Assembly: GCA_017551625.1 (NCBI GenBank)
Contig: JAFZLF010000005.1
Location: forward strand, 1-64,000
Direction of reading: 5' to 3'
Length of the DNA: 64,000 bases
Source of the DNA: Clostridiales bacterium
GTDB lineage: Bacteria > Bacillota > Clostridia > Saccharofermentanales > Saccharofermentanaceae
Part shown: piece by piece, positions 11,550 through 59,286 of the stretch
Layout: every line of letters begins with the position of its first letter
How positions within the stretch are numbered: the first letter of the stretch is position 1
Program-made: the position numbers and the translations under genes
The notes under the pieces: generated by a model
What the model saw: the letters and a program-made list of their open reading frames with translations, nothing else
Told to the model about the DNA's origin: nothing
The model's database searches: none

Positions 11550-11563
11550 AGAACGAATGTTCG
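11550..11563. promoter_or_regulatory. LexA (SOS) box upstream of recA
   Basis: AGAACGAATGTTCG matches the Gram-positive SOS box CGAAC-N4-GTTYG at all but the first base. It begins ten bases after the -10 element, over the likely transcription start, which is a good repressor position. lexA is in this window at 58.6 kb. Confidence 0.85.
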
Positions 11564-11577
11564 ATAGGGAGGTTCTT

Positions 11578-12684
11578 ATGGCGAAGAAGGATTCGAATAA
11601 GTCAACACAAGATGTGTCGAAGAAGGTAGATAGTGAGAGAGCGAAGGCCCTGGATGCGGCCTTGATGCAGATCGAGAAGCAGTTTGGTAAGGGCGCGGTC
11701 ATGCGCCTCGGTGAGCAGGCCGGTATGGTCGTTGATTCGATCCCGACCGGAGCGCTCACTCTGGATATCGCACTGGGTGTCGGCGGTTTGCCGAAGGGAA
11801 GGATCATCGAGATCTACGGGCCGGAGTCTTCCGGTAAGACCACAGTAGCGCTTCATGTCGTTGCAGAGGCACAGAAACAGGGCGGAACGGCGGCCTTTAT
11901 CGATGCCGAGCATGCTCTCGATCCGGAGTATGCCGCGAAGATCGGTGTCAATATCGATGAGCTCATCGTTTCCCAGCCGGATACCGGTGAGCAGGCGCTG
12001 GAGATTACGGAAGCGCTCGTCCGCAGCGGCGCGATCGATGTAGTGGTCATTGACTCGGTCGCAGCACTTGTTCCGAAGGCCGAGATCGATGGCGAGATGG
12101 GTGATTCCCACGTTGGACTTCAGGCCCGCCTCATGTCCCAGGCTCTCCGCAAGCTCGCAGGTATCGTCAGTAAGTCCAGTACCGTATGTATCTTCATTAA
12201 CCAGCTCCGTGAGAAGGTCGGTGTCATGTTCGGTAATCCCGAGACCACACCGGGCGGCCGTGCTCTGAAGTTCTATTCCTCCGTCCGTCTGGATGTCCGT
12301 CGTGTCGAGTCTCTCCGTAACGGCAGTGAGGTCATCGGTAACCACACGCGTGTCAAGGTCGTGAAGAACAAGGTCGCTCCGCCGTTCCGTGATGCCGAGT
12401 TCGACATCATGTACGGTGAGGGTATCTCCAAGGAGGGCTGTATCATCGATCTGGCGGTGGATAAGGACATCATGGAGAAGTCCGGTTCCTGGTTCTCCTA
12501 TAAGGGACAGAAGATCGGTCAGGGCAAGGATAATGCGAAGACCTATCTGAAGGAGCATCCTGAAGTTCGAGATGAGATCGAAGAGAAGATCCGTGCGCTC
12601 ATCGCCGGTAATGCGGTTTCCGAGGAGCCCGTGCAGGAGGAAGCTTCCGATGATGACGAGGATTTCCTCGGTATCGATGTCTGA
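11578..12684 (+). CDS. recA: Recombinase RecA
   Basis: A 368-residue RecA. It forms filaments on single-stranded DNA, drives strand exchange and triggers LexA self-cleavage. Walker A GPESSGKT is at 81-88, and the segments [16 protein letters not shown] and [15 protein letters not shown] are characteristic. The acidic C-terminal tail ([10 protein letters not shown]) is present. The ATG has GGGAGG upstream; an in-frame start further upstream would lie before the SOS box and is rejected. recX follows. Confidence 0.98.
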
Positions 12685-57703: not shown

Positions 57704-58333
57704 TTATACATTATCGTTTGTTGTTTCGGATGTTTCCGATGTGTTTGACGGGATCGGCGTCACGGCCTGGGATTCCGGTGCGATATCTTCCTTGGTCGTT
57801 TCAGTGGCAAAAGGATCGCTCTGGGTCAGATCATCGATTTCCTCGATGCCGACCATCTGTTTATATTCGTTGGTGTCGATCTTGGGCATGATCCATCTGT
57901 ATGTCATGATCAGGATAAGGATGATGATCGCAGCGACCAGGATCCGTCGGATGTTCAGGAGGATCCTCTCTTTCCTGTACTTCTGATCCACGTATTCCTT
58001 CGTGGTATATCCGACAAGCACATAGACCTTGGAGATGGATTTCCTTTTCGGCATCCTTCTGTGTTCTGCGATCTTGGCCTTTACCTTGTTTCGGATCTCG
58101 TTGGGAAGATTCCTGAAATACTGGACTGTGGTCCGTCCGAGGAACCGGAAGAAACCGATAATGGACGTAAGTAAAGTTCCGGCGTCGCTATCATCAAGCT
58201 CGTCATCCCAAGCCTCGTTTTCAGAACGCATGTCGTCTTGAAGTTTCGGATCGCGTTCTTCTTCTGCATGATCGTCCGGTGTTTCTTCAATATCGATATT
58301 CGGTTGATGATTCTTCTGTTCTTCTGTATCCAT
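57704..58333 (-). CDS. Single-span membrane protein near lexA, unknown
   Basis: A 209-residue protein with an acidic N-terminal 45 residues, a basic juxtamembrane region (KAKIAEHRRMPKRKSISKVY) and one strong span at about 131-148 (RILVAAIIILILIMTY). An outer tail of about 60 residues is rich in Thr, Ser and Glu. No family is recognised. An extended -10 box TGCTATAAT (minus strand, at 58356-58364) just upstream can drive it alone, and read-through from the 58-residue gene is also possible. Confidence 0.75.
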   Translation of the reverse strand: MDTEEQKNHQPNIDIEETPDDHAEEERDPKLQDDMRSENEAWDDELDDSDAGTLLTSIIGFFRFLGRTTVQYFRNLPNEIRNKVKAKIAEHRRMPKRKSISKVYVLVGYTTKEYVDQKYRKERILLNIRRILVAAIIILILIMTYRWIMPKIDTNEYKQMVGIEEIDDLTQSDPFATETTKEDIAPESQAVTPIPSNTSETSETTNDNV

Positions 58334-58371
58334 ATATCATTCCTTTTCGAGGATGATTATAGCATACTCGA

Positions 58372-58548
58372 TTATTCTTGCCTATTCCACCTCCCGAAAC
58401 TTCCGTCGATGCCGTATCTTGCGCCGATTTCATGCTTTCTGGCATCGAAATGTCTCTTAAGTGTGATGGAACTTAAGACGAACATGATGATTATGCTTCC
58501 TGCGATGAGCCATAGCAGGACGGTGTAAAGCTGCTCATTTTTCTTCAT
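58372..58548 (-). CDS. 58-residue membrane protein divergent from lexA; candidate SOS-controlled gene
   Basis: A short open reading frame starting MKKNEQLYTVLLWLIAGS. It has one hydrophobic segment at about 8-28 and a basic, mostly polar tail (residues 31-58). An AAGGTGAG ribosome site lies close before the ATG. The start is only 20 bases from the lexA SOS box, which lies between the two divergent genes. In B. subtilis the division inhibitor YneA, also a small one-span protein, is encoded divergently from lexA. No sequence family is recognised (no LysM domain), so the analogy is positional. Confidence 0.65.
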   Translation of the reverse strand: MKKNEQLYTVLLWLIAGSIIIMFVLSSITLKRHFDARKHEIGARYGIDGSFGRWNRQE

Positions 58549-58568
58549 TTTCTCACCTTCTCAGAATT

Positions 58569-58582
58569 CGAACAATCGTTTG
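58569..58582. promoter_or_regulatory. LexA (SOS) box between lexA and the 58-residue gene
   Basis: CGAACAATCGTTTG is a perfect match to CGAAC-N4-GTTYG. It overlaps the lexA -35 element by three bases and lies 20 bases upstream of the divergent start codon, so it can control both genes. Confidence 0.9.
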
Positions 58583-58608
58583 ACAACGATTCTGTTAAAT
58601 GTTACTAT
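58580..58608 (+). promoter_or_regulatory. lexA promoter
   Basis: TTGACA (58580-58585), 17 bases, TACTAT (58603-58608). The SOS box overlaps its -35. A TATAAT three bases further on is an alternative -10 with a long spacer. Confidence 0.65.
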
Positions 58609-58641: not shown

Positions 58642-59286
58642 ATGAGCACGTATCGGTTTACCAAGAGCAATCTGAACGAGACACTTGAGATCATTTATTC
58701 CTTCATTGTTTCCTATGTGAAGAAGGAAGGTTATCCGCCGTCTGTCCGAGAGATCTGTCAGGGCGTCGGGATCCGTTCCACTTCTACAGTTCACGCGCAT
58801 CTTCGTCGTCTGAAAGAGGAAGGTAAGATCGAGTATGTTCCGGGTAAGCGCAGAGCGATCATGGTCAAGGATAATGAGAATGAGCGCATGGCGGCTTCTT
58901 CTGCGAAGAATATCCCGCTGGTAGGAACCGTTACGGCCGGTGTTCCGATCCTCGCTGAGGAGAATATCGATCATCTTATGCCCTTCCCGTCCGAATACTT
59001 CAATTCCGCTGAGTATTTCGCGCTAAAAGTCCGTGGCGACAGCATGATCAATGCCCACATCTGTGACGGCGATTATGTTATCGTCAAGCGTGACAATATG
59101 GCCAATATGAATTCTATCATTGTCGCTCTGATCGGTAACGAGGCAACCGTTAAGCGCCTCACCTACCGTCGCGGTCATGCGATCCTTCAGCCTGAGAATC
59201 CGGCTTATGAGCCGATCCCGTTCGAAGATGACGACTGCCGTATCTTAGGTGTGGTACAGGGTGTATTCCGCACGAATGTGAACTGA
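58642..59286 (+). CDS. lexA: SOS repressor LexA
   Basis: A 214-residue LexA. The N-terminal winged helix-turn-helix (PSVREICQGVGIRSTSTVHAH) is at about 33-53. The self-cleavage site Ala99-Gly100 lies in VGTVTAGVP, with catalytic Ser134 in VRGDSMI and Lys171 in EATVKRL. RecA filaments trigger cleavage and release SOS genes, here at least recA and lexA. GGAGG precedes the ATG. Its last 82 bases overlap the 3' end of hfq on the other strand. Confidence 0.97.
   Translation: MSTYRFTKSNLNETLEIIYSFIVSYVKKEGYPPSVREICQGVGIRSTSTVHAHLRRLKEEGKIEYVPGKRRAIMVKDNENERMAASSAKNIPLVGTVTAGVPILAEENIDHLMPFPSEYFNSAEYFALKVRGDSMINAHICDGDYVIVKRDNMANMNSIIVALIGNEATVKRLTYRRGHAILQPENPAYEPIPFEDDDCRILGVVQGVFRTNVN

Follow-up and report, generated by a model that had tools for sequence, protein, structure and literature searches.

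The short open reading frame that diverges from lexA in this Clostridiales genome is, with near certainty, a real gene under purifying selection. It encodes an undescribed 58-amino acid membrane microprotein with a single span. The earlier note had proposed that the product is an SOS cell-division inhibitor. This candidacy is plausible, the more so because the same genomic slot holds the division inhibitor YneA in other Clostridia, but it is unproven.

A microprotein gene conserved in one genus

The frame, its ribosome-binding site, its single span (approximately residues 7–30) and its divergence from lexA are present as the earlier note had described them, as is the spacing of exactly 20 bases between the end of the LexA box and the ATG. 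Coordinates in the window (the whole 64,000-nt stretch of DNA analyzed) are given in Table 1. The AlphaFold model of the protein is a single helix (residues 3–47), with pLDDT >90 across the span.

Table 1. Features of the lexA region, in window coordinates.
Feature	Position	Strand	Evidence and remarks
58-aa single-span membrane microprotein gene	58372..58548 (stop codon included)	-	ATG frame and translation
Conserved core, codons 1–32: start MK and membrane helix with S/C18, M22, L25, T29	58453..58548	-	Alignment, column conservation, leave-clade-out profile scores
Basic tail, codons 33–58	58375..58452	-	Clade-specific, constraint weaker; missing from 35–41-aa members
Ribosome-binding site AAGGTGAG	58552..58559	-	Sequence; purine-rich GGA/AGG-type site before every genus copy
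Credible LexA operator CGAACAATCGTTTG (minus strand CAAACGATTGTTCG)	58569..58582		20 bases from small-gene ATG; overlaps lexA -35
lexA	58642..59286	+	Pfam LexA_DNA_bind 6e-18, Peptidase_S24 3e-32
lexA promoter TTGACA-17-TACTAT, TG before -10	58580..58608	+	Small gene's sole -10-like match, TATAGT, lies in the reverse complement
Extended -10 TGCTATAAT of downstream gene, directly after small-gene stop	58356..58364	-	Conserved in family
209-aa single-span protein, older lexA-side neighbor in the order	57704..58333	-	

The synonymous/nonsynonymous comparison suggested in the earlier note indicates purifying selection. Over codons 1–32, pN/pS is 0.27 in six pairs of relatives, as against a mean of 0.83 and a minimum of 0.47 in 2000 neutral simulations; this ratio, and that of 0.43–0.47 for the more weakly constrained tail (codons 33–58), are rough because synonymous sites are near saturation in several pairs. 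Changes at codon positions 1, 2 and 3 of the core number 49, 24 and 82 in the same six pairs. The frame is short, diverges fast and lacks a family match, as would be expected of a chance open frame with no product, but the codon-position bias and a pN/pS below the simulated minimum rule this reading out, and we assign it a negligible probability.

Searches of PDB, NCBIfam and phage genomes returned no match to the protein, and those of Pfam and PHROG only sub-threshold ones; the earlier note's statement that the protein has no LysM domain is supported by the Pfam search. A search for paralogues gave weak background matches (E ~1e-4 or worse), compared with 1e-8 or better at lexA, where the matches are the training sequences themselves.

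Conservation of the frame in relatives, on which the earlier note had made its proposal depend, is borne out: 18 of the 23 genus genomes (family Saccharofermentanaceae) carry it. These 23 are mostly rumen metagenome-assembled genomes, with one named relative, Candidatus Scatonaster coprocaballi. Linkage is strict, the small one-span frame being divergent from lexA in all 18 carriers. The five genomes without the gene form one supported clade within the genus in the LexA tree, and the sister genera also lack it. The placement of the non-carriers points to a single gain, basal to the genus, and a single loss, and the loss, together with the absence from sister genera, indicates that the gene is dispensable. 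In the clade that lost the gene (L011–L015), the lexA spacer is shortened and the downstream gene has shifted up to the box.

Sequence similarity among the carriers is limited. Leave-clade-out profiles recognized four of seven clades, ranking them highest or nearly so among 3000 shuffled decoys, and were weak for the other three (L020; L021; L026–L029), whose membership in the family rests mainly on position. Only M1, K2 and the four helix residues listed in Table 1 are common to the lineages, and the tails differ. Members range from ~35 to ~75 amino acids, five of them having only 35–41. In three genomes (L016, L019 and L021), the frame reads across the next gene's promoter. With cross-lineage conservation confined to MK and the helix, and with members this short, the working part of the microprotein is most likely the helix. 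A conserved helix face is hinted at by residue spacing but does not reach significance (p 0.11–0.18).

The basic tail to which the earlier note drew attention is present in this protein, but it is a feature of some lineages and is not conserved across the family. In this genome, the residues that follow the span are more basic than those of the N-terminus, which is not so in some other members. The topology is therefore ambiguous; here the more basic tail would favor a cytoplasmic C-terminus.

The place of YneA in Clostridia

Among 27 genomes of the class outside the family, 22 carry a LysM motif next to lexA; almost all of these motifs lie in a YneA-like protein composed of a transmembrane segment and LysM. 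A lexA-adjacent YneA has been published for Clostridium thermocellum (PMC8457756). The comparison with YneA made in the earlier note is therefore apt. At these clostridial lexA–yneA loci (class survey L181–L209) there are two to three LexA boxes, the one nearest lexA being mostly CAAACNNNTGTTCG. Here only the lexA-side box remains.

YneA of Bacillus and Clostridia, an SOS division inhibitor, resembles the microprotein in being divergent from lexA, lying beside a LexA operator and having one span near the N-terminus. It differs in possessing LysM, two to three operators and ~90–120 amino acids, whereas the microprotein has no LysM (by Pfam search), one operator and ~35–75 amino acids, with no detectable profile similarity: an hhalign comparison of profiles with 11 lexA-adjacent YneA-like proteins of the class gave a probability of 7.5%. 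No LysM-containing YneA-like gene was found at lexA at any of 50 loci of the order (23 in the genus and 27 others). Nor was LysM detected in this genome, so a YneA elsewhere in it was rejected, or in 14 genomes sampled from the family. The absence of LysM genes from the order's loci, along with the lack of kinship, suggests that the order probably lost YneA from beside lexA at an early stage, the small gene being a later arrival in one genus.

The alternative that the microprotein is no new gene, and is instead a degenerate YneA stripped of its LysM domain, would account for the shared slot and orientation and for the basic N-terminus and single span of both proteins. Both the profile comparison and the distribution oppose it, since none of the 27 sampled loci from the rest of the order has YneA at lexA, and a remnant would thus require many separate losses. 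We regard this alternative as very improbable.

The earlier note had also cited other small SOS-linked membrane proteins as precedents. The YneA slot bears out the comparison, but the nearest precedent, SosA, was missed. Staphylococcal SosA (77 amino acids) is likewise divergent from lexA and without LysM (PMC6851548), and the absence of LysM is consequently not in itself new. By description, SosA also shares with the microprotein a single span and a lineage-specific sequence. It differs in its extracellular C-terminus, which is conserved and needed, whereas the tail of the microprotein varies between lineages and is possibly cytoplasmic.

The probable LexA operator and promoters

The box beside the small gene, which the earlier note had called perfect, differs at one base from the palindrome CGAAC-N4-GTTCG (13 of 14 positions). 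Matches with one mismatch occur at chance level in the window (12 found, 11.2 expected), and a genome-wide scan for CGAAC-N4-GTTYG returned mostly chance sites within genes. The box is nonetheless very probably a LexA operator, because the 14-mer is conserved (unchanged in all but one of the 23 genus genomes and retained in sister genera), because it overlaps the -35 element of lexA, and because this genome has similar boxes upstream of recA and of two genes for Y-family polymerases (L167 and L169, named from sequence). The recA box, AGAACGAATGTTCG, is located at 11550–11563 of the same window, with the RecA match at 11644. A further box, CGAACAAACGTTTG (L098, 2461–2474), is 37 bases upstream of a 66-amino acid frame (MAKETVRFEYDSDKLMAIR...) and marks a possible additional LexA target.

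While the earlier note's operator stands, it is foremost that of lexA: genomes without the small gene, namely the five in the genus and those of the sister genera, keep the box at lexA, so that its first role is lexA autoregulation. The lexA promoter (TTGACA-17-TG-N-TAAGAT or TACTAT) is well conserved at all 23 loci of the genus. On the strand of the small gene, no sigma-70-type promoter is conserved across these loci, in agreement with the weakness that the earlier note had acknowledged. A minus-strand promoter with TTGTCA as its -35 was considered and rejected, since no consistent -10 is suitably spaced from it. In many genomes, the reverse complement of the lexA -10 reads TATAGT, TATCTT or TATATT. 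E. coli has many bidirectional promoters with a common -10, and a single repressor can shut off both transcripts (PMC12825309). We infer that the small gene is at best transcribed from the lexA promoter read in reverse.

These features also bear on whether the gene responds to DNA damage at all. A small membrane protein might merely reside in the lexA spacer, weakly and constitutively expressed, with a function unrelated to DNA damage. The lack of a dedicated promoter or an operator of its own, with the lexA-side box alone remaining where other loci have two to three, and the retention of that box in genomes without the gene, are in keeping with such a protein. Yet the box is 20 bases upstream of the start, within any 5' leader, and would hinder transcription initiated upstream; and the linkage to lexA is strict in 18 of 18 carriers. 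We consider mere residence in the spacer doubtful, and control of the small gene by the SOS response rather probable.

Possible roles of the microprotein

In the full account that we tentatively favor, at slightly less than even confidence, the microprotein would be an SOS-controlled division inhibitor, genus-specific and membrane-only, in the slot of YneA. In undamaged cells, LexA on the common operator would block both the lexA promoter and a weak reverse transcript from the same -10 region. Upon DNA damage, RecA-driven cleavage of LexA would free both directions. The microprotein would then enter the membrane, where its conserved helix may contact a membrane part of the late divisome (of FtsW type, as for YneA and SidA), and septation would be delayed until repair is complete. 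The analysis shows the selected gene with its position and membrane helix, the operator with its kin at recA and the Y-family polymerase genes, and the loss of the LysM-bearing YneA; reverse-face transcription, induction by the SOS response, contact with the divisome and the block of division are what we infer.

Several findings agree with a division inhibitor: the gene is under purifying selection, traces to one gain and one loss on the LexA tree, faces away from lexA across the same operator in every carrier, and takes the slot that is YneA's elsewhere in the class; operators similar to the lexA box occur at recA and the two polymerase genes; and conservation across lineages falls in the helix. 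Against it are the lack of an own promoter, the persistence of the operator without the gene, the dispensability of the gene, a helix face that is not significant, and a possibly cytoplasmic C-terminus unlike that of SosA. Some members are also nearly tail-less. The transmembrane segment of YneA alone binds TM7 of FtsW and reaches midcell but does not stop division in B. subtilis (PMC13396833), and large C-terminal truncations of SosA abolish its activity (PMC6851548). On the other hand, SidA of Caulobacter, with one span and 29 amino acids, stops division via FtsW (PMC4211646) and, like SosA and YneA, acts late in division; by description it is in the same helix-only size class, and the microprotein would similarly act through membrane contacts.

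A more specific form of the division-inhibitor account is possible, though we think it unlikely. After the order's loss of YneA beside lexA, one genus would have gained a helix-only gene between lexA and its neighbor, transcribed off the back of the lexA promoter, whose product halts division by helix–helix contact with the divisome alone, without a cell-wall-binding domain. The members of 35–38 amino acids make the idea of the helix as the whole inhibitor directly testable. If the microprotein is a division inhibitor, the slot beside lexA gets refilled once YneA is lost, and the targeting part of YneA, its membrane helix, can be the whole inhibitor elsewhere. Uncultured rumen Clostridia would gain a candidate DNA-damage checkpoint, none having been described in the literature searched.

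The main mechanistic rival to a divisome target is a membrane-active peptide of the TisB/DinQ kind, a LexA-controlled helix that depolarizes or alters the membrane and slows growth. These E. coli peptides are likewise LexA-linked, small, hydrophobic and single-span, and the size class of the microprotein, with its single hydrophobic helix and a core of ~35 amino acids, fits them; DinQ is a LexA-controlled single-span peptide that acts without filamentation (PMC3567139). They are under antisense RNA control, of which no sign was noticed here short of a dedicated search, and they occupy a genomic slot other than that of the microprotein, which in other Clostridia belongs to a division inhibitor. 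In addition, hydrophobicity is uniform along the span, and most members have a low moment. We judge this rival to be fairly unlikely.

The microprotein could instead act together with the downstream 209-amino acid protein, as its partner or its regulator in the membrane, as the two genes are adjacent on the same strand and both encode membrane proteins. We find this improbable: the downstream gene occurs across the order without the small gene, and its own conserved extended -10 (TGCTATAAT) suggests that it probably needs no small-gene transcript. The 209-amino acid protein has no match in Pfam or NCBIfam, a weak MacP-like match being found for one distant member only, and its predicted structure is of low confidence (mean pLDDT 63). 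It carries a [KR]VYxLxGYTT motif before its span and neighbors lexA on this side across much of the order. On the other side, hfq (minus) and lexA (plus) share 82 bases at their 3' ends (59205–59286), so that read-through from mutL-miaA-hfq would be antisense to lexA and would reach into the small gene.
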